64,000 nt of DNA from contig OY540816.1 of the NCBI GenBank assembly GCA_961205875.1, positions 13,898,701 to 13,962,700 on the forward strand, written 5' to 3'. This DNA comes from Sialis fuliginosa (taxonomy: Eukaryota > Arthropoda > Insecta > Megaloptera > Sialidae). Shown here piece after piece: positions 41,468-63,448 of the stretch. The notes beneath the pieces were generated by a model. It saw only the letters and a program-made list of their open reading frames with translations. It was not told the origin of the DNA and searched no databases. The stretch's first letter is position 1. Every line of letters starts with the position of its first letter. The position numbers were made by a program, and so were the translations under genes.

Positions 41468-44400
41468 TTATAATTTTTCTTCTTCGTCACTGACGTACAT
41501 TCTTGTTAAATCCGAAACAACGGATGCAGTTTCACTCATTGTACCAATATGTTCTGATTCCTTCATTAGACTATCTGCTTTAACTGAATACATACAATCC
41601 ATCTTCTCAAAAAAATAGTTTTCATTTTCATCGTTGATTTCACATTTATTTTTTGTCTCAACCACCATTGCAATCATAGGAACTTCGTTAGCTATAGGTA
41701 TAGGAGTAAAGTCATCTGGTATTTCTACACTTATTTCTTTATCACTGAAAGGATTGTAATATTTTATATTAATAATGATTTAATTTTTAGTATATGTAAC
41801 CCAAGTCTTGACTTAATGTGTGATGAAAAATTGGTCAAAATCAATATTGATTTTATTATATAGGTATACAGCAATACATATACAATCATATGGCAGGTTA
41901 GGTAACAAATAGGAAATTATTTTATAGTGAATTAAAATAAATACCTTTCACTGTGTACCATATTGGAAGCATTTGTGGCTATAACCGTTTGTAGCCAATT
42001 TGTGGGAGGGTTTGGTCTGTAAGCAAGACATACATATATGTTATTAATGTATTCTTATTTTAATAAAGAAAAAGTAGGTACTTACAATGGTGTAAATCTG
42101 ATCATCGATATTGGTTGAACAGGTGTAAACGATTCACTTAAATAGTGAACATTTTCAGATTCGGTATCATCGTCCATTGAAGATAATTCTTCTACATTTT
42201 CTATACTTTTATTTATAAGATTGATATCAAAATATATCATTGCTAAAATAATAATAAATTATTTAAAAAATAATATTTCGTAATACAGCCATTCTTTATT
42301 ATTACGATTGTGGAATAAACAAATTAAAAACAATTTTTATTTATTTATTGTTATTTTTAATAATAACCCAGACAGCAATATTATCAAAATGATTACATTA
42401 ATTCCCAGTATTATAAAGGATTTGCTTGAGTGCAAAAGCAAATAAGCTTCCAGCTAACGCTATCTGCTAGGTGTTAAATTGTTATGAAATTGATATTTTA
42501 AAGCAGTGGTAATAAATGTATAATAATGTAAATGCATTTTATGAAGTATACTTGGTAGCACTTATTTTAAGTCGCTGATTGTACTTATCACGCATGCGTC
42601 AATATGTACGATTTCATTCGCTACATATTTGAGTGTGTTGTCATTTATATTCAGTGCCTAGCAGATAGCATTATCTGAGAGCTAATTTGCTTCTGCACTC
42701 AAGTTAATTCTTTATAATACCAGACCTAAGAGATCTTTTTTTGACATTTACAAAAATACCTCTTTATACCATTTTGAATTTTTTTGCTATCTCCCTGTGA
42801 GGGTAAAAAATATGTAGTATTAATTACATACTAAATATATAAACATCTTTTTAATCACAATAAAACAATACCACTCAATTTCAACATGTACCGTTTTGAC
42901 TTCACAATTGTTTTATTCTGGTTAAATAAAGACAGTTATGAACTGTCAGCCAATTAGAGCTTGCTAGACAAAAAGGTTGTGGTTCATTGTCCTATCTGTT
43001 TTGCAAGATAGATTTTTAACATTGAATTAAACCTGCCTAAAATTTAACGTGATCGCTCCGATATTTTTTTCCGTTTCACAGATTTCCATCTTACAAAGTA
43101 CAAAAAAAAATAATTACATTTCGAAATTTATTTTCAGTTTGTCCAGGTTTTCCAGATTAGGCAGGTTTCACTGTATTATATTTCTATAGATACAACTTAC
43201 ATTTGTCAATAGGTCCTAATTTTAATGCAACATTAAATAACACTTCAGCTGTCCAAAATTCAGGAACTCGAGGAAATATTAATCCTGTATCTGATGACAA
43301 ATGGAACCCTATTTTATGCATTAATAAAACAAAAGGTAACTGAGATAATACTTGTGTTTCTTCATAACTCCAAGCAACAATAGGAATAGCTTTTTTCATA
43401 ACTAAAAAGAAAAAATAACTTAAGTACTATAAACATTTTGTAAAATTATCTCTAATTCGCACTGTTTCAAAAATAATTCGAAAAATTTAAAAATCTACAT
43501 CAGTAAACATCCGTATCTGGTTGAAAAATCATTTTCAAAAATAGGAGGTTTTCTTCTCAGACAAAAATTAATCTTAAATATAAAATTTTACGCTTCTACA
43601 ATTTGTCGTATTTTATACACAGACATCATGGCGAAAATAGTCAAAATGAATTCAGGGAAGGTCAAAATGGATAATTCCATCAAAATCCGGATTTAAAAAA
43701 AAATCAGTTTTACAGTACTTACTTATACTATGGGTATAAGTAACAAAAAAAATGTAATACCTGAAAAATAATGAGGTATTGGTTCCATTATATGATCAGC
43801 ATTGGAATTCAACTTTCGATTCAAAAGCCTAATTTTTACATAGCACGCATCGAGTAACACTTTCTGTAACCACTTTATATAGGAACCAAAATTATCTTTC
43901 ATTAGTATTTCTCTCAGCATTATTATGTCATTGTCATCTGTTTGTGGCATCATAACAATACTATTATCGTTATAAACGTTTTGTCCTTTGACCCATTCAT
44001 TGTAAGTATCCATATTTATTAAACCTTGTTCGTAAAGTTTATGCAGAATTGAAAATTTGCTTTTAATAACACCTAATTCTTCAAATGATTTTACCATATT
44101 TGAAATTGGATCAAATGTGTGCTGACTCTCATCATAGTATTGTTTTAATTTTATTATTTCTTCTTCATTCCAACTGTAAAAATTATTATTGTATACATTA
44201 AAAAATACAAACAATTAAAAATAAAACATACTTCTTTTCTGAAGATGTACGAGTGTCATCTAGTGTAGAACAGCTGTCTGTTGTTAACGGACTTGTTCGA
44301 GGAGTATTTATAAACTTATGAATAACAAACTCAATTAAATCAGCCCAATCCTAAAAACAAGAACATCACGAACAAATAATATGTTCTTATATAATATAAC

Positions 44401-47400
44401 TGTGAATCCTTAAAAAATAAAAAGATTTGAACCAGTTCAAAAATTTTCTTTTCTATCTATATCTTAACGAATAAAACAATACACTATACTAAAATTTATA
44501 TCAAATTTACCAACTAAAACAGTTGTTAGCCAATCATTTGTGCTTTCAAATCCATTCTTTATACTCCTTTATACTAAGTAAATACATATTTATACCGGAT
44601 GTTTTTTTAAAGACTTTCTAACAGATTATACCCAAATAACAAATTTTCAGAAAAAATGTTTCCAGACAAAAGTTTCATAGTTTCAAGAACGCTAATTGTT
44701 TTTTAATTTTATTATTAATTTTTTTATGCTACTTTTTATATAGAAAAAAGTTCATCCAGAAATTTTTATTTGTTTTGTTTCATATCATAAAAAAATTTCA
44801 AACAAAAGTTGCTTATTTTTTCCCGTTAATTACAAATGTAAAAAAAAGTAGAACCTAAAAACCCATCAAGGTGACCCTTTTAAGATTATCTCATAATGTC
44901 AATATTTAGCATCCTCGAAACCATGAAGCTTTTGCCTGAAACATACAAGTCCTTAAAAAAACATTCAGTATATAGATACAATAAGTCCTCGACATACAGA
45001 TATTACATATATTTTTACATTTATGTACTCCTTAAAATATTAAATAATTTTTTCAGTATGTAACCACTTAAGTCGAGTACTTACTGTAGATATAAAATGC
45101 TACTTCGCTGAAAAGAATAAATTAAACCAAAATGATTTTTAAAATTTTTAAAATTATTTTTTCTTGAAATGGTCATGTCTTATTAAATGCAAATGAATTA
45201 GTCAAACTCCTTACATCACATATTTCATAGTCTGTTTCCCAAATAAGAGAGAATGTTTTAAGTATTATTGGCTGAAATAATGTTGACACTTTGTTCAAAT
45301 CGCCTCCAACATGATGCATCATAGTAAATACACAATCATTAACAAATTCACCATTATTTTGGAAATTTTCCAACAGCAAACCATATTGATGCATTATTTC
45401 TACTGTTGCAAATCTGAAAATATCAATAATTCCTATATAATATAAAAACATTATCAAAAATGTCAAAGCCGGTCTACACAATGATACTTAATATCGACAT
45501 TTATGTCTAGATTACTGTCTTTGCTGTAGAATAAACTAGAAAAATCGAAATATTAAAAATATAAAAATGATTACTTTTTAAGATGGTCAGTCATACTTAT
45601 TGAAAGTTTATTTCCAGGTTGTTTACTAGTATTGTCCAAAAATATCAACATAATATGATTTGTAACAATCAAATCTTGTAAATACTGTTGGTTTTGAATG
45701 CTTGAATTAAATTGTCGAATTAGTAATACAAATAAAGATTTTAAATTTTCTGTGGAAGCTATTTTTAACTGTAGTTGCATAATATAATTACGATCATCTT
45801 CACTGATGTGTGATAACTTTTTATACATATTCACTGCTTGCAAAAATTCACGAATTGCTGTAACAACCTGAAATATTAAATATGAAATTATAATTCTTAC
45901 AAGGAATTATCAATATGAAGTTTATTTATAAATCTTTTACAATGTTTATTATTTTATGATATTAAACATAAAAAAGTCAATAATATTTTTAAAGACACAA
46001 TTAAAATTACGAACTGTTCAAAACAAATATAAAAATAAAAACTTACTAAATGCAATCTTCTTAAACATGGTTTTAAATCACCACCAATCTGTTTTGTAGT
46101 AATTTCAAGTTGTTCGCATAAATTAACACCTTCAAATACTAAGTACGAGATAATATCAAATGAGAGAACCAACATTACATGTTCTAAATCCAATTCAAGT
46201 TGTGTAGAAAATTTAAGAAAATATGTTACTAGCCAAAAGAAATGAGATGTATCTATCTGAGCGTACATGTTAGACAATAACTGGCCATGTAGTTCTTGTA
46301 CCAAGTGACTGTAACCTTTGAGTAAAAAGTCAACAGTAAATTCTTTTAAAATATTTGATATATCATCATTTGTTGGCATATGGTGCATTAATCCCTTCAT
46401 ATTTATTCTGAAAATAAAAACCGAGACTTAATATTTAAATAATGCTTAAATTATAATGTTCCAATCTGTGTTTCATACTCATAATAGTAATTCAGGCATG
46501 TTACACAAAATTAATATTTAATAAAAAATTAAATAATATATAAAATATATTAATCTATTTGAATTAACTACGCACATATGTGTTTTACTCCTTTTAATTA
46601 ATTTTTTTCTTCTCCATTCCTTTTTATCTAAAGCCGACCCTCTAGCTTTATTTAATCTTGATTTTTGTGATGTGTGTGGTTTTTGATGTACAGGTTTTGT
46701 ACGAGGAGTATCGTCATCATTACTCGATGTTGATATAGATTCTTTTTCCATTTGAGTAGCATAACCGCAATCTGATAATTCTGATACCGAAGGACAATCC
46801 ATTTTTTTAATATTATTATTTGAGTTTGTAGACTATAAACATAATAATTTGAAATTAATATTAGTGTATTTATTTAATTAAAAACAGAAATTATATTTTT
46901 GTGAATGATAGTATGAAAAATGAAAAAAAAAAATTGCAAAATTAATTATCGTCACTATAATCAACAAAATGCATAGCCCTAAAATTGAATCATTCTTAAT
47001 ACAAGTAGTTAATGATTAATTAAAGATGTTATAAACCGTATTTATGGGTTTTTTTCTCTTTATAAAATACATAAAATTGTGAGTATAATGTTTTCCACAA
47101 TGAATACAGATTTAATGTTTTTTCTAAATAAAAATAACAATGATTTTTTATAGCTATATATTTTAATTTGAGTTAATCATGTTATTTACCGACATATTTT
47201 TCAAGATAGAGCTGTGCCGCAGTCCGAACGAGGTAAACATGGAATGATTATGTGACCAAGGCGAGATGTTGATGCCATCCTTCTATAGGCCGAATGACGT
47301 TCAACTTGGTTATAGGAAAATCATGAATTGGTCAGATGGATGTTCAATGATTAGAAGGTATTCAGGATTGGTGTAAAATGTAATGAATGAACATATAAAA

Positions 47401-49546
47401 GTACATAAAATATTTTTAAAATATAAAAGGCACAAGTTGTAATATATAAATGTATATATAAAAGAAAAAGAAAAAATAAATTAGTTATAAAAGTATGTTT
47501 AAAATATTTCTACAAACTATAGTTTATAAATATAAAAAATTATTATATTTCGATCAGCCATGTTTAAAATATAAATGTTGCCTTTCTATTACAAAATATA
47601 TTTTTTTTTATACATTTATAACAGTGAATGATCTGTTTGAGATTATTTTTTAAGAAATTGTAATTTACAATCCAATCATATAATTACAATTATATATATC
47701 ATCAGGAAAATGCTCATCTAAAAATCAGTAAGCTAAATATTGAAATCTTGCAAGTAATCTGTTTAATAAGGTAATGAGGGTTGAAATTCTTCAAATATGC
47801 AATGTTATTAATTATTACTGTACAACAACAAACATAGAGTTCTTACTGTATAACAGAATAGAAAATCTGTAATTAAAATATATACAGTAGATACCGGATA
47901 TTGTAATCATATTTGTCCAACGAGTTTTTAAGTCTAAATATTTTTTTTTATTCCCACTTCCAAAACTATCAATTACATTTAACATGAATTATTTGATCAC
48001 ATTTATAACGGGCGAAGTGATTCTAAAAATCAGCAAAATATACATATAATTTGGTTGGTTGAGTCTATCATAAACCATAAAACAGAAAAATCAGCACCTA
48101 TATATTGTATTATTAAAATTTCAAACTACTTTAAAGTTATTTGTACTTTTATAATGAAAACAGTTAATAATAAAATATATTAGCTATAAAATATAAACCC
48201 AAAAAAACACAAGATTTATAAACAAAAACCTAAAAATGATAGAATGTATTTAAATAAATCAGTACCTATAAATAAATATTACACTTGCCTTATGTTCCGA
48301 TTCTAAAGGATTTGACAATCTCTGTGACACATTCTTCATACAGGCTGTAATATTTTTAGGTCTAACCATTGGTTGTTGATTAACATTCATATTTCTATTG
48401 TGTTTATTTGATTGTTCATTTGTAGAATTTTTAACATTTATACGATTAGCATTTGATTTACTGCTGCCTCCATTATCAGATGAATCTGATGTAGGATCTG
48501 ATGTTAACATCGGAGAAGAATCGCCACTACCTTGGTCAGGTGGAGACGTATTACTTTCATTATCCTCTGAACTTTCACTTAGTGATGCTTCAAACCATAG
48601 ATTTAATAACTTATGTAACATACCCACATGTTGATCTTTATACATTAAAGCAATTAACTGTACCATTGTAACTCCCCAATAGGCCTAAAAAATAAATCAA
48701 CGTTTAAATCTGAATGTGAATATTTTTATGATAAGAATAAAGGAATTCAGAGTTAAATTTAGTTAGTGCTACTTCATTTACATCTACAATAATAACAGTG
48801 TACAATATTATAAACTTACTGTTCCACCATTCTCAGTGAATTGTTGAGGATGTGAAATGAGATGCAATATCAGCTTATCAATGCTCTGTGTGAATAAATT
48901 CCATAATATTTGATTCTGTAAACTTGTATGACCAGACAATGGATCCGTATTTTCAGGAATATGTAAAACATTTCTGAGTAACAATAAGCAGTTATTTATA
49001 CATTCACATTGTTCTAAACTGATTTTTTCATCTTTCTCTAAAATTACTCGGATATAATCCAAAATAGCTTTGGTTGTACGTGAATCAACAAATGTCTCTT
49101 TACTTGTTGTTAACAATCGGTTTAATTCGAACATTGTGTGACGTCCCACATCAGTTTTAGTCATTACATCTGTAGACACTAAACATTCCACTGGCATTGT
49201 AAGATTTACAAGTATTTTAATTGTTGTTTCTATTATTTTCAAATCATTTTTTACATTTATCATTAATGGAATCAAGTCGTTTTTTATATTTTGTCCGAAT
49301 GCAATCGCTCTTCGAAATGTACGAAGAGCTCGATCTTCTTTGCATAATTTATCAAGTATTTCATTTAAATTAGCTGTACAACAAAATTTTAAAGTTACAT
49401 AATGTTCATTATTAAAAATACGTATATCGATTTAAAAATTAATACATACACAAGCAATTCTCGCCAACATTATACGAGTCCCCTTGTTGGACACCAAGTG
49501 ATGCAAATATACTATGGATTTGAGGGTTTACTAACATCCATGCCAT
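41468..49546 (-). CDS. tim: Circadian clock protein TIMELESS (insect tim type), 13 coding exons, 1131 aa
   Basis: Exons: 49546-49450, 49373-48820, 48684-48289, 46832-46576, 46407-46047, 45867-45575, 45413-45215, 44350-44232, 44173-43761, 43401-43201, 42242-42086, 42016-41945, 41744-41468 (3396 nt, consistent phases). Diagnostic of Drosophila-type TIM rather than the paralogue timeout: [13 protein letters not shown], the Ser-rich patch [16 protein letters not shown] (residues 251-266), [11 protein letters not shown], a basic nuclear-localisation-like [14 protein letters not shown] (about 419-432), [17 protein letters not shown] and the C-terminal [15 protein letters not shown]. In flies TIM pairs with PERIOD and is degraded after light through CRY/JETLAG (known). 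It is about 270 aa shorter than the fly protein, mostly in linker regions. Intron 3 appears to use a GC donor. A 5' UTR intron lies at 50764-49562. Confidence 0.95.
42402..42726. mobile_element. MITE family A, full-length copy in a timeless intron, inverted orientation
   Basis: The termini 'cccagtattataaaggattt' and the reversed counterpart ending 'tctttataataccag' match those of 40925-41252. The asymmetrical interior (tgtataataatgtaaatgca) runs in the opposite direction from that copy. It lies in the intron 43200-42243. Confidence 0.8.
43024..43173. mobile_element. Pogo-like MITE in the same timeless intron
   Basis: The right end, read in reverse, is cagtgaaacctgcctaa; the left end retains 'aacctgcctaa'. 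The same terminus occurs at 56696. TA flanks the right end, as for Tc1/mariner/pogo elements. No coding sequence. Confidence 0.6.
46833..48288 (-). other. Large timeless intron with apparent GC donor and a less AT-rich island
   Basis: The exon before ends cataag|gcaagt, a GC-AG donor consensus, and the acceptor is gtttatag|tct. Removing 48288-46833 keeps phase 0. Within it, about 47180-47390 is noticeably richer in G+C; on the plus strand one frame reads [20 protein letters not shown] but has a stop just upstream. This may be a decayed gene or transposon fragment; I could not identify it. Confidence 0.55.
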
Positions 49547-49561
49547 AATTCAATATAAGAT

Positions 49562-50764
49562 CTATAATAATTAATAGTTTTTATACATATATTCAGCACC
49601 ATACCAAGGGGGTATTCTGGGTATTGTTATGTTTATGTGAGATGTTTTGTTCTAGAAATTCACTAAAAAATGCACTGGTGGACCCGTTTACACCATATTT
49701 TTGTTGTGTAATCATAGTATTATTACTTTTATTGTAAATTTAGAGAGATAGCTGATATATTCTAGTTTTCGCAAACCCTTTGAAGCACAAAAAATGCTGC
49801 GACCTGTAGAACAAATATGGTCGTCACGCGAAAAAAAAAAATTAAAATAATGGTCATTTCGAACTACCAACATGTTAGAGTAATTATAATCTTTTTTTTA
49901 GAATGATCGAGCAACCGGTGCTGGACCACTTCATATGGATTGACCCTTATACTAAATAATATTATTTGAATATTTCATATACATTTTCTTTTCCCCCCAA
50001 AAAACTATTTGAATATAATATTTCATAACGTGTCACCGGATTAGGGGGGTACCATAACTAACATTAATTCCGCCGGGGCCCCGACCTTCCTTAGTCCGCC
50101 ACTGATAAATAAAATTTAAAAATCATCAAAGGAGTATATTTTACAGATAATCGATAGGTAGGTAAAAATAGGCATTGAAAAAAAAAAAAAATTTTAAATG
50201 TAATGCAAATGGCCTTAGATAATTAGATACTTTATAATCTCTCAATCTTCAGCGAGGGCGCATTAAAAATCCACCAAAGGCGCCATGGCGCCCGCTTGCG
50301 TCGGGTTGCCGACCCCTGAAATAGAACCTCCAAAGTCCACGACCCGGTATAGCTCAATAGCTGTATTAGTCCCCTAGTCATCGGGCCCGTTTGCCCTGGG
50401 CGAGATTTTTTACGCTAAGTACTTAACACACAAGTGCTGCATTCTAATTCGTTAGTAAAAAAAAAGTCACGTTTGAATATTCTACTGCACGCGCCAAAAC
50501 ACGAGAGCTAAAAATATATGCAATATTAATCAATACATTTGAATATTAATTAAAAACTAAATATCACAGCTAAATATCAAAAATAATATAAATGTAGTAC
50601 ATGTTATGTATTACTTATAATAAATTGTTTTGTAAATATACTATTCCATACTTCAATATAATAATATGTATTTTAAATTATTTTAAACAATGAAGTGGTA
50701 TAATGGTTGATTTTCAAATTTCAAATCAACATTTATAATTAAACAATTGATCATTTTTACTTAC
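49562..50764 (-). other. tim: 5' UTR intron of timeless
   Basis: A strong donor (aaag|gtaagt, exon end 50765) and an acceptor (attattatag, next exon from 49561) lie upstream of the start codon, 15 nt before the ATG. The intron carries repeat debris, including a hAT-like terminus at 50302-50318 and 'ccgccactg' near 50097. Inferred from splice consensus only; no transcript evidence. Confidence 0.6.
50302..50318 (-). mobile_element. hAT-type transposon terminus
   Basis: Read on the minus strand the sequence is caggggtcggcaacccg, the common terminal motif of many hAT elements. No matching opposite terminus or transposase is seen in the neighbourhood, so the element is partial. Confidence 0.5.
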
Positions 50765-50926
50765 CTTTCTTTGAAAATAAAGAATTTATCGAATCATTAG
50801 ATTTATTATATGTTTTACACTAGTAATACTTTGAAAACACTAAATAATACTCGAAAACTATCATTATTTGTTGGACAGTGATTAAACACAGCAACTTTCA
50901 ATACAAACGCAAGGTCGCACGCGTCG

Positions 50927-50945
50927 CACGTGTTGAAGCAACGTG
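50927..50945 (-). promoter_or_regulatory. tim: Tandem circadian E-box (CACGTT-N7-CACGTG) in the timeless promoter
   Basis: On the gene's strand the order is cacgtt, 7 bp, cacgtg. Two E-boxes 6-7 bp apart form the high-affinity site for CLOCK:CYCLE (BMAL1) in clock-gene promoters (established). It lies about 160 bp above the putative first donor at 50765, where a core promoter would be expected. Confidence 0.75.
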
Positions 50946-52149
50946 ACAGTTAACCGATTGGAAATAATAGAGAAAATTGTTAATGGCATGCGCGTCTCTA
51001 GGAAAATGTGATGTCTGTAAACGAGTTTAAATAATGTATTTTTAAATAATACACATATTATTTTAAATAATAAAAGTATACAACTTCTTTAGATATTTAT
51101 AAAAACATAATTTCCATAATATTTAAATTAAAAAAAATGTAATTACAATATTTTGTAATATTAAAATAAATTACATATAACACAAGCACATTATTTCACT
51201 TTTAATAAGAAAATATTATATAATCAGTAATCACACTTAAATTGTATTGACATGATTCATTATAAGAATAAGTTTTTGACATTTAATAAATGTCACAATC
51301 AACAAAAAACCCAAAAAACAACTATTGTCACTGGACGTGTTCAACCAATCAACTTTTTAACCAACCAATGATGTGCCAGTAATTTTAATATGCCATTCAT
51401 GCCACCAATACGATTACAGCAACATAATGGCGGCAAAAATAAATTTATGTTTGAATATTTTGTAAACAAACCCTTAATTATTTTCATTATTTCAAAACAC
51501 ATTCTTTGTATTTATTTATCATGACTATATCAGTCGATTAATTAAGTATTGTTTTAGCGACTGTTACAAAATGGTCTTAAAATAATCTTTTTATCAGTGC
51601 CATAACTAGAGGCTTTGGGGCCCTGCGGTAGCAAGTGACCAAGGGGCCCTTACTATATGCAGAATATACAAATTAAAGACCTTTTTTTTATTGTTACCTC
51701 AATCTACAATGTTACGCTTCTTACTAATTTTAATTACCTTTTTTTTTGTTCCTCAATCTTGCCGACCGCAATTTTTACGCTGCTGCGTAGGCCTCGGGAC
51801 ACTGCCCCAGTGGTATTTACGGCATTGCTTTTTATGTACTAGTACTAGTAAGATACAACAATAATAGTAGTGTAATGAAAACATATTATAATTACTGCAA
51901 TTTTAATGAATTAATTTTTATCTGAATATCATTAAGTAATAAGCCATTTTATAAAATTATTTAATATTTATAATTCAATATCATTTACAGAGGAGCATAT
52001 CTGTAAAAGGTTTCTTATCTTATCTTATATTAAATTAATGAAACAAGAAGTATAGCGATCAAATTTAAATTTTATTTGTCTATTTACAATAACTTACTAT
52101 ATTATACACATCACCATAACCAATAATAATACTTATTTTTGAAAAAAAA
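50946..52149. other. Gene-free stretch between timeless and PDCD10
   Basis: No exon seen. 51598-51800 contains less AT-rich fragments such as cagtgccataactagaggc and ggggccctgcgg, typical of decayed transposon ends. The rest is AT-rich; the PDCD10 3' UTR enters from the right (AATAAA on the minus strand near 52070). Confidence 0.5.
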
Positions 52150-53836: not shown

Positions 53837-54266
53837 ATTTTATTTTATATTTATTTAACTATTTGTGAAATTCAATAATTATCTCTTAGATTCTTGAACA
53901 GCACATTAAAGTATTAAAATAATCTAATAAAATTATTGCACTTTCCTGAAATATACAAAAATTTTACCACCTCACAACAAAATATTCACGACTCATCTGA
54001 CAAATCGGACATACTGTGACGGTATTTCAGTTTGCAATTTTTTGGCTTGAGCAAATGCAGCAAATGATTAGGTATGTTTTTCGTATTTTTAACACGTTTA
54101 ATTAATATATATTTCGAAAAAATAAAGTTTGTGTCGTTTAAATGTTCTTGATAGTATTTTTATAAACTAAATACATATTAAAAATTATCATAACCTGTTC
54201 TAAAAGTTCTTATATTTATTTTTAGGTTACTTACCATGTTGCTTTATTGACCAATTCAAATACATA
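53837..54266. promoter_or_regulatory. Divergent promoter region of PDCD10 and WDR55
   Basis: 430 bp between start codons of two genes transcribed outwards. It is AT-rich with a less AT-rich central section (about 53980-54060). No motif is assigned. Confidence 0.45.
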
Positions 54267-56507
54267 ATGAAAAGTAAAATTTTTAATGGTGAATCTGATA
54301 CTGAAGATTCAGATACTACTTCAGAATCTGATGTATCTATTTCAAGTTCATCAAGTGAAGAAACAGAAGAACCTGAACAAACTGTAAGTGCAAATATAAA
54401 TGATGAAAATATAACATTGAACATCAATGAAGAAGAGGATGAAACAATAAAAGCTTTTATCCGTGAAAAAAACAAGAAAAATAACCATCCACCCAGCATT
54501 AATTTTGATGATCATATAGTAGACGTATGTTTTCATCCAAATGAAGATTTACTAGCCGTTGCTAGCATAACAGGGGATGTTTTTGTATGTAAATACACGG
54601 ACGATGAAACTACTATTGCTGACACTTGGGAATTGCACTTAAATTCTTGTCGAGATATTGAATTTAGTACTGATGGAGAAGTATTGATATCAACAGCTAA
54701 AGATAAATCTATAATGATAACAAATGTACAAACTGGTAGATTAGTTCGATTCTATGAAGAATGTCATGAAGTACCTGTATATTGTTTAAGAGTATTGGAT
54801 AATAATATATTAGCATCAGGTAATTAATTTTTTTAAATCATTAACTATATTATGTTTTTTTATGCCACAATAAGGCTAAGAACAACAGTTTGTGACTAAT
54901 TGACGATTTGTCCAATGCTTACTTCAGCACATACTGATAAGTTAGAACTACCACTACTCTGTCTTTTATATTGACTACTTTGCAGATGGTGTTAGCTTAG
55001 TTTTTGCTCGAGAGCAAATTCTGTATAATACCAGATATTAATGAATTTTATACGTATTCCATATTCTTTGTTCACAGCAACGGGTGTATAGTACTAGTAC
55101 TCTATTTATATAATTTATTTATATATATAACATAGAAGTCAGTATACTTATATTAAATATATTAAAAAATTTCAGGTGATGATGATGGTAGAGTCAAGTT
55201 ATGGGATTTGAGAAGTGATTCCGATAAACAAATTTATACAATCAAAAAACATGATGATTTCATCAGTGATATGGTTACAAACGAAGCAAACAAATATCTT
55301 GTGTGTTCTAGTGGAGACGGTTCAATATCATCTGTCGATTTAAGAAAAAGGTATTAGTCTAACTTCCTTTTATTCAATAGATCAAATTAAATTTGTTTAG
55401 TTACTTTTTCTAAGTAGATGTGTATTTAACATTGAAAATTCAGTTCAGAAGGTATATACTATACACCTCACAATAATTCCTTGAAAAATGTTTCTTATGC
55501 CTGCATTACACATGTCAATTTTTTTACCGATTTTAAGTACTTAAAATTGACGACTGAAAATCACATTTATATATTATGTATATTAAATTTTAAACTTCAT
55601 TTCTTGATGAAAACAAAAATGTTTAATTTAATTAACATTTGCCAATTGACTTTTTCACAGTATAGAATTACTGTTTTTTTAATTTGTATGATTTTATGTT
55701 GTTAATTATTTGTGCATTTTATTCTTCAACACGGAAAGAATTTATTTGTTATTCTATACAATTTTTCTAAGTTGGTATTAAATTAGAGAAATTGTTGAAA
55801 AATTTAAAAAAAATGTGTAAAAAACTTTAAGGCACTACTTAAAATTGGTAGAAAAATTTTAATTGTAATACATGCTTATAGTCTACTGCTAAAATTATGA
55901 TTTGATGAACAAAAATTTATTGGTTGAATATTTAGGAATCCGTATTTATACATTATCATTATGACTAGTCATATAAATTGCTTATGAATTTCACATACAT
56001 TTATTTATCAATTACAGAGGTTTTCATCTACAATCAGAAGAATATGATGAAGAATTTACGTGTATGGGATTACTCCGTACAGAATCTAAACTCTTAGCAA
56101 ACACATCTAAGGGAAAAATGTATTTATTCAATTGGGAAGAGTTTGGATACCACAGCGATGAATTTCCGGGCCTCAAATATTCAATAAACTGCATTGTTCC
56201 AGTAACTGAAAATATTGTAGTTACAGCGAGTGAAAATGGTGTTTTAAGAGCAACGCATTTGTTCCCACATAAACATTTAGGAATTGTTGGTCAACACACA
56301 ATGCCTATAGAAAGTATTGATATTTCAAATAACGGACATTTAATAGCATCAAGTTCACACAACAATGATGTAAAATTTTGGAATATTCAATATTTTGAAA
56401 CTTTTGAAAAAATTAGTTCAACAAGTAAACGCAAAACTAATTTGTCTAATAATTTACCATCTTCAAAACAAACGAATGTAGCTGATTTCTTTGCAGATTT
56501 AAACTGA
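54267..56507 (+). CDS. WDR55: WD repeat-containing protein 55, 3 exons, 405 aa
   Basis: Exons 54267-54819, 55176-55350 and 56018-56507 join in phases 1 and 2 (1218 nt). An acidic, Ser/Glu/Asp-rich N-terminus of about 75 residues precedes a seven-bladed WD40 propeller (VDVCFHPNEDLLAVASITGD; GDDDGRVKLWDLR; NNDVKFWNI). The C-terminal ADFFADLN matches the short tail motif of WDR55. Known role: nucleolar protein needed for rRNA production. AATAAA follows 4 nt after the stop codon (56511). The start chosen is the first ATG of the open frame, directly before the acidic stretch. Confidence 0.93.
54960..55045. repeat. MITE family A, one end only
   Basis: 'gcagatggtgttagctta' and 'gagcaaattctgtataatac' correspond to the terminal 90 bp of family A. 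It lies in WDR55 intron 1. Confidence 0.55.
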
Positions 56508-61097: not shown

Positions 61098-63448
61098 GGG
61101 GGTGTCACTCTGGTGCTAAAACTGGAAACTCAGTTTGACATTACCGGGTGTGGGGATCTCAGACGCATGGGCGGTAAGGGGATACCGGGTATAGGGATCT
61201 CAGACGTATAAGAGGTAAAGGGAAGTGTTTCGCACAATAGTGCAACGTTGATAAAAATTATACAACGTTGTAAAAAAAGTTGGTGATGAAGACGCTAAGT
61301 TCTTCTAAAATGGCGTAAAGAATTTGTAGAAGAATATCGTTTGCAGAACGTTGACATTATTTTTTAGTATTCATGTAAGTATTTAATTGTTATTAGTTTT
61401 TCTATTACATATGACAAATTTGCATGTTTATTTTTATTTATATGCGTGAGATACAACTTTTGATTTAACTTTTTTTATTAAAAACAAGTGCAAATATTTT
61501 TATGCTAATAATTAACTTAATTAAAATTTAATAATATTTCTTCCTCAGTTTACAGATACTACATACACCATATTTCCTGATCTCCTTGAAGATAAAGAAA
61601 CATTTAGGATATCGGTATGTGATAATAAGTTTTACGTGATTTTATTAAATTTTATTATTAAATCAAATATTTAACTATATTAAAAGCAAGCAACAAGTTA
61701 TGTTATATTCTTTTAATTCAATAAATAAATAAATCTAGTGAATTTACTGTAATAAAATGTGAATCATGTAATTCATCGTAATAAACAAATTAAAACTATA
61801 TGTATTATATTTTTATTTCATTCACCTTTACGTAAGAATATTCTATTTATCTTTTAACAATCCGTGATGTTTTATTGTGTCTGACATAATTTGTACATTT
61901 ATATTTTGTACAATCAGAAATATTGTTTGACATATTAAAACATCATGGGTTGTATAGGTTAGGTTTAATTCCAATAAACAGAAAACATATGTGGATTTCA
62001 AATATTTATATACTGCAACGTGATTGGTGCAAAGAAAATGTATACTCAACCAATCAGATCCGTCCCACCTCGTAATGTCAAACTATGTTTCCAGCACAGA
62101 ATAATAAATATACAGAAGCGACACTCAACGTTATTTTACTGGAAACATCGTTTGACATTAAGAGGTGCGACGGTTCTGATTGGTTGGGTATATATATACT
62201 CTGAACCAATCATGTACCAGTATACGAATATTTGAAATCCACATATGTTTTCTGTTTATTGGAATTAAACCTAACCTATACAACCCATGATGTTTTATTA
62301 TGTCAAACAATATTTTTTATTGTACAAAAAATTAAATGCACAAATTATGTCAGACACAATAAAACATCACGGATTATTAAGGAATAAATAAAATATTCTT
62401 ACGTTAAGATTAATGAAATAAAAATACAAAATTGTTTTAATTAATGTTTATTAACTATGACAAATTACTTGATTTACATTTTTTTACACTTAATTCACAA
62501 AATTTATATATTTCAAGTACAATATTACATTATTTCAATTGCGTTATTAAGACTAGCACGTTTTATTCCTTACGAAAACTAGCATGTATGATATTTTGCC
62601 ATGAAAATTAGCACATTTTATTTCTCACCACGTTACCTAGCATTTTTGATAACTCACTGCATATTTTAAACATGTTAATTTTCTTTAAAATATGTTAAAC
62701 ATGTTAGTTTTCCTGATATTTCAAAGGTGCTAGTTCTCGTAAGTTAGGCTCAACTCAGACACTTCAAGTCACTAAAAAAATGCCTCGAAGTTGAATACAA
62801 ACTGAAGTCGAGTTTTGAAGGCATACTGTCACTGGCAGTTACTTGGCAACATTGAGCCATATTTTAGTTGCTGGAAGTGGCTACTCGGACTTGAGCCTTA
62901 ATTATAAAAACACATCAAACTTGAGTACATACCAATATTCTTAATGTTTCTTTATCTTCAAGATCAGGAAATATGATGTATGTAGTGTCTGTAAAGTGAA
63001 GAATAAATCTCATTAAATTATAAGTTTAATTATTAGCATAAAAATATTTATACTTGTTTTTAATAAAAATAAGTTCAATTCAAAGTTGTATCTCAACACA
63101 TAAATTAAAATAAAGAAGCAAATCAGTCATATGTAATAGAAAAACTAATAATAATTAAATACTTACATTAATATTAAAAAATAACGTTAACGTTTTGCAA
63201 ACGATACACTTTCCGAAGTTCTATACGCCATTTTAGAATACTTCGCATCTTCCTTCATGTCTAAACTTTTTACATCGTTGCAATATTTTTATCAACGTTG
63301 TACTGTTGTGCAAGACACTTCCTCTTACCTCTCATACGTCTGAGATCCCATCACCCGACATCCCCTTACCGCCCATGCCCCTGAGATCCCTACACCCGTT
63401 AATGTCAAACTGTGTTTCCAATTTTACCACTAGAGTGACACCCCCGTG
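61098..63448. mobile_element. Nested foldback element: outer arms about 520 bp, inner arms about 265 bp
   Basis: Outer arms: 61098-61623 and 62938-63448 are reverse complements (cgggggtgtcactct at the left end; agagtgacacccccg at the right end; internal shared gataaagaaacattt). Inner arms: about 61826-62090 and 62150-62412 are reverse complements (ccgtgatgttttattgtgtc / gacacaataaaacatcacgg). The loop is about 60 bp. Arms are divergent by substitutions, so it is not recent or is a composite of two elements. No intact ORF. Confidence 0.85.

Follow-up and report, generated by a model that had tools for sequence, protein, structure and literature searches.

A probable E1-E2 tandem E-box upstream of the circadian-type timeless gene of Sialis fuliginosa and its recurrence beside a Pdp1-like gene

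The enhancer of the Drosophila timeless (tim) gene is described as carrying two tandem E-boxes with a spacing of 7 nt, each of which is indispensable to the binding of CLK and CWO (PMC5096704). In a second description, the fly TER1 is an E-box-like sequence with a canonical box 7 bp downstream (PMC2254435). An E1-E2 (EE) element combines a canonical CACGTG with an E-box-like NACGTG placed in direct orientation, at a gap that these two sources put at 6 or 7 bp (PMC2254435, PMC5096704). The mammalian EE-elements, which belong to other genes (Per2, Nr1d1, and Dbp), are likewise described as direct repeats of an E-box and an E-box-like element; that of mouse Nr1d1 is given as CACGTGAAGCTCTCACGTT, with a gap of 7 bp, whereas the conclusion of the same paper sets the gap at 6 bp (PMC2254435). 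An element of its own is reported in PMC5499816 around tim, vri, Pdp1, and cwo of 12 Drosophila species, found using the model that had discovered E1-E2, a model that was presumably trained on those same four genes. Among the literature titles listed, none dealt with a tim E-box of aphids or hemipterans.

We analyzed a window of 64,000 nucleotides (64 kb) from the genome of Sialis fuliginosa, and all positions given without a contig or locus label refer to this stretch. The plus strand at 50927-50945 reads CACGTGTTGAAGCAACGTG, which on the minus strand, the strand of the gene discussed below, is CACGTT-GCTTCAA-CACGTG. The E-box-like CACGTT (E2, 50940-50945) is the upstream member of the pair, and the canonical palindromic CACGTG (E1, 50927-50932) is the gene-proximal one; the spacer GCTTCAA (50933-50939) sets them apart by 7 bp, confirming the exact spacing on the gene's strand that an earlier note on this DNA had claimed for CACGTT and CACGTG. 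The locus thus holds a canonical CACGTG and an E-box-like NACGTG in direct orientation with a 7-bp gap, as in the definition of an E1-E2 element, and their order is that described for fly TER1 (PMC2254435). As far as the fly layout is known by description, the two loci agree in an E-box-like word followed by a canonical one on the gene strand, in the 7-bp spacing, and in a position upstream of the ortholog (PMC5096704, PMC2254435), and the gap given for mouse Nr1d1 is also that found at tim. We consider it very probable that these 19 bp form the E1-E2 circadian element in the timeless promoter of this insect, bound by CLK:CYC and driving daily transcription of tim.

On the evidence of its sequence, the gene below the pair is an insect timeless of the circadian type (tim1). 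The open frame 48808-49431 on the minus strand matched the Pfam family TIMELESS (PF04821) with an E-value of 1.5e-30. A query of 718 residues, spliced from the 5' and middle coding exons with some boundaries set by eye and the 3' exons left out, scored 898 bits against the PDB chain named "Protein timeless" (8dd7) and 137 bits against that named "Protein timeless homolog" (7pfo), which we take to be the fly and the human protein, respectively. This difference indicates the circadian tim1, and an identity as TIMEOUT was rejected on the same two scores; the naming of the gene as timeless in the earlier note was borne out by the Pfam match and by the 898 bits to 8dd7. The start codon (ATG, 49546-49544) is in frame, aligned to residue 1 of 8dd7, and lies in exon 2 (49450-49561), followed by exon 3 with the Timeless domain (48820-49373, within the scanned frame). 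Further coding exons fall in 45173-48684, within the open frames 48259-48684, 46518-46832, 45954-46427, 45571-45906, and 45173-45487, with boundaries drawn by eye; searched alone, 48259-48684 and 45954-46427 each gave no Pfam match. Probable 3' coding exons (41468-44214; frames 43723-44214, 43184-43426, and 41468-41779) are assigned by position, and a Pfam scan of the first and last of these frames returned no match. All of these exons are on the minus strand. At the end of exon 4 (48288-48300), inspection by eye suggested a possible GC donor (AAG/GCAAGT) instead of GT. A search of the viral_contigs set for relatives of tim returned none.

A splice donor (AAAG/GTAAGT, 50765/50764) follows the pair at a distance of 162 bp on the gene strand, in agreement with the roughly 160 bp estimated previously. 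Together with an acceptor downstream at 49562, this donor frames a plausible non-coding exon 1, so that the minus-strand interval 50765-50926, ending at the donor, may comprise the core promoter and the putative exon 1, and 49562-50764 would be the first intron (GT...AG). By eye, GC-richer, transposon-like stretches were seen at 50000-50400, in this intron, and at 51600-51830, above the promoter. A point against the E1-E2 reading is the distance to the gene, which seems much shorter here than in flies, where the enhancer fragment spans -578 to -714 relative to the start (PMC5096704). A further difference is that TER2 is reported for flies as well (PMC5096704, PMC5499816), whereas 50765-51300 contains no ACGTG besides the pair. 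The same interval showed no match to the initiator TCAKTY or to TCAGT. TATA-like words are present at 51222 and 51101, both above the pair; if they are used, transcription would start above the pair, and the pair would consequently lie inside exon 1. The promoter scan also returned 8 relaxed matches to the initiator and 5 words resembling a DPE, as is usual with such short patterns, and no start site could be placed from the searches for TATA, initiator, and DPE motifs or for PDP1/VRI boxes.

To a reading of the pair as two E-box-like words that came together by chance within a short GC-rich stretch above tim, the local composition lends some support: the patch 50881-50960 has a GC content of 46%, above the 21-31% found per 2 kb of the window. 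A single CACGTG is unremarkable here (3 observed vs 2.64 expected). Against chance, no other two NACGTG words of the entire 64 kb lie in direct orientation 3-14 bp apart, and dinucleotide shuffling of the window, repeated 100 times, never produced CACGTGN{5,9}AACGTG. A third-order model of the window was used to simulate 20 Mb of sequence. The simulated sequence contained no copy of the exact form, 4 pairs of CACGTG with NACGTG spaced 6-7 bp apart (roughly 0.013 per 64 kb), and 7 pairs when any two NACGTG with this spacing were counted. Among 20,000 dinucleotide shuffles of the local 300 bp at tim, 2 contained the exact form and 14 a CACGTG+NACGTG pair.

Across the 392-Mb genome, CACGTTN7CACGTG occurs at 18 sites, as against 16 for the backward pattern; the exact pattern is therefore not enriched, and its location alone is special. 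The near equality of the two counts favors a chance origin, but the expected density of exact sites at tim is only 4.6e-5 per kb (with uniform placement, GC-rich promoters being ignored), and two of the 17 other sites are beside a Pdp1-like gene. On the window shuffles, the uniqueness in 64 kb, the simulation, and the local shuffles, chance was rejected as the likely cause, though genome-wide enrichment is absent, and we regard this explanation as highly improbable. We examined 10 kb around each of the 17 other sites and submitted a total of seven open frames from these surroundings to Pfam, including three from the Pdp1-like gene. Neighboring genes could be placed at three of the 15 sites that are neither at tim nor beside the Pdp1-like gene, and none of the three has a clock link: one site (L009) falls in an open frame flanked on both sides by 7tm_1 frames of a 7tm receptor, another (L013) is 2.2 kb from a VWD frame, and the third (L024) is 0.8 kb from a transposon-like RNase H frame.

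The two sites beside the Pdp1-like gene, at C9:13987846 (L020:5047-5065) and C9:14031351 (L021:5052-5070), are 43.5 kb apart and are both upstream of one minus-strand bZIP exon (C9:13983637-13983924), the first by 3.9 kb and the second by 47.4 kb. This exon encodes a PAR-type bZIP (Pfam bZIP_2, E-value 4.1e-13) with 82% identity over 71 residues to a segment of human HLF, and its top PDB match was NFIL3 at 37 bits; on these matches the gene is called Pdp1-like here. Position and strand suggest that the distal site is part of this same gene. Pfam searches of the open frames L020:1289-1741 and L021:1931-2401 gave no match. Both sites carry a CACGTT-N7-CACGTG identical in form to that at tim, and the distal one also shares the orientation of the tim pair relative to its gene, whereas the proximal one is reversed. 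The distal site differs further in being a triple, CACGTG-6-CACGTG-7-AACGTG, with gaps of 6 and 7 bp, and the surroundings of the two sites are GC-richer (43% and 56%). The probability of at least two exact sites in the 55-kb Pdp1 interval is 2.8e-6, calculated with uniform placement, GC-rich promoters ignored, and an interval chosen afterwards. Of 20,000 composition-preserving local shuffles for each of the Pdp1-side stretches, 6 and 18 contained the exact pattern and 85 and 215 a looser pair, compared with 14 for looser pairs at tim; that looser pairs are less rare at Pdp1 counts against the reading.

The fly-like layout at tim and the recurrence of a rare pattern at the Pdp1-like gene together support well the reading of the pair as a tandem E-box for CLK:CYC. 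To this extent the proposal of the earlier note stands, whereas the "classic negative-feedback control" of tim that it also proposed is a step that we infer. The element is most likely of a known kind, E1-E2, and what is added here is a strict pattern that has no more than 18 copies in 392 Mb and locates the Pdp1-like gene twice. We tentatively suggest, with rather less than even confidence, that the strict CACGTT-N7-CACGTG marks a small clock regulon in this lineage, comprising tim and two alternative Pdp1 promoters, and that a scan for it alone may point to core clock genes. A looser pattern, CACGTGN{7,8}ACGTG, gave 212 matches vs 113 for its backward form, with palindromic pairs counted on both strands. 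Among the looser matches listed was CACGTG-7-CACGTG at C5:11718795-11718813, a place noticed afterwards because a cryptochrome gene on the plus strand lies 6.2 kb downstream of it. An exon of this gene scored 155-156 bits against chains named Cryptochrome-1 (4k03, 4jzy, and 4gu5) and 146 bits against the best others; the former are presumably Drosophila Cryptochrome-1 and the latter mammalian CRY1, so that the C5 gene appears to be CRY1-like. The Pdp1-side sites and this C5 pair speak for a presence of the element at other core clock genes of the species. Against it, for the gene at C14:9727045, which we take from its translation to be vri-like, no exact site was present within 4 Mb, and the sole exact site on C14 is at 13.77 Mb.

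In the most likely mechanism, two CLOCK:CYCLE heterodimers would bind CACGTG and CACGTT cooperatively, slightly more than one helix turn apart, and their occupancy would turn on tim at a particular time of day. Repressor complexes containing PER would then remove CLK:CYC, and CWO would compete for both boxes, so that tim would be switched off, as described for flies (PMC5096704).

The boxes might instead be real yet read mainly by other bHLH factors to which CACGTG or ACGTG is acceptable, such as Myc:Max, USF, PAS proteins of the HIF/ARNT type, or CWO alone, which would place tim under general or hypoxia-type control. CACGTG is bound by many bHLH factors. A paired HIF-1 site in which two non-canonical E-boxes stand 8 nt apart is also described (PMC2254435), but at the present locus the gap is exactly 7 bp, the partner is CACGTT, and the gene is tim, all matching the descriptions of the fly enhancer (PMC5096704, PMC2254435). 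The identical pattern at the Pdp1-like gene speaks against such factors as well, and we consider their predominance at these boxes unlikely.

If the pair is bound by CLK:CYC, the tim gene of an AT-rich insect would be controlled directly by the clock, just as it is in flies, and the strict architecture with its 7-bp gap would have outlasted the turnover of the surrounding sequence. Direct E-box input to tim would also bear on the share of TIM in the core loop of certain insects. The pair offers a 19-bp target for reporter tests and a means of seeking clock promoters in unannotated genomes.

Upstream of the pair, a WD40 gene (54204-56507, plus strand) is arranged head-to-head with tim at a distance of about 3.3 kb from the E-boxes. 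The top Pfam match of its open frame 54204-54827 was WDR55, with 127.9 bits, below the family cut-off of 200. Given the head-to-head arrangement of this frame with tim, the pair might serve this divergent WDR55-like neighbor, or both genes; the neighbor, however, is about 3.3 kb off, compared with 0.16 kb to the putative exon-1 donor of tim, and WDR55 is not known to us to be a target of the clock. Of the explanations weighed here, service to this neighbor seems to us the least credible, with hardly any probability, and control of tim by CLK:CYC remains the preferred reading. On the same side, 10.5 kb past the right end of the window, a match to the cryptochrome/photolyase family (PF03441, E-value 8.5e-74) was found at C8:13973216-13973806 in an open frame of 539 aa. 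Some 24 kb separate this match from the E-boxes of tim, making tim and a gene of a light-receptor family near neighbors. Within the window, two tandem 41-bp units with 82% matches were observed at 61142-61223.
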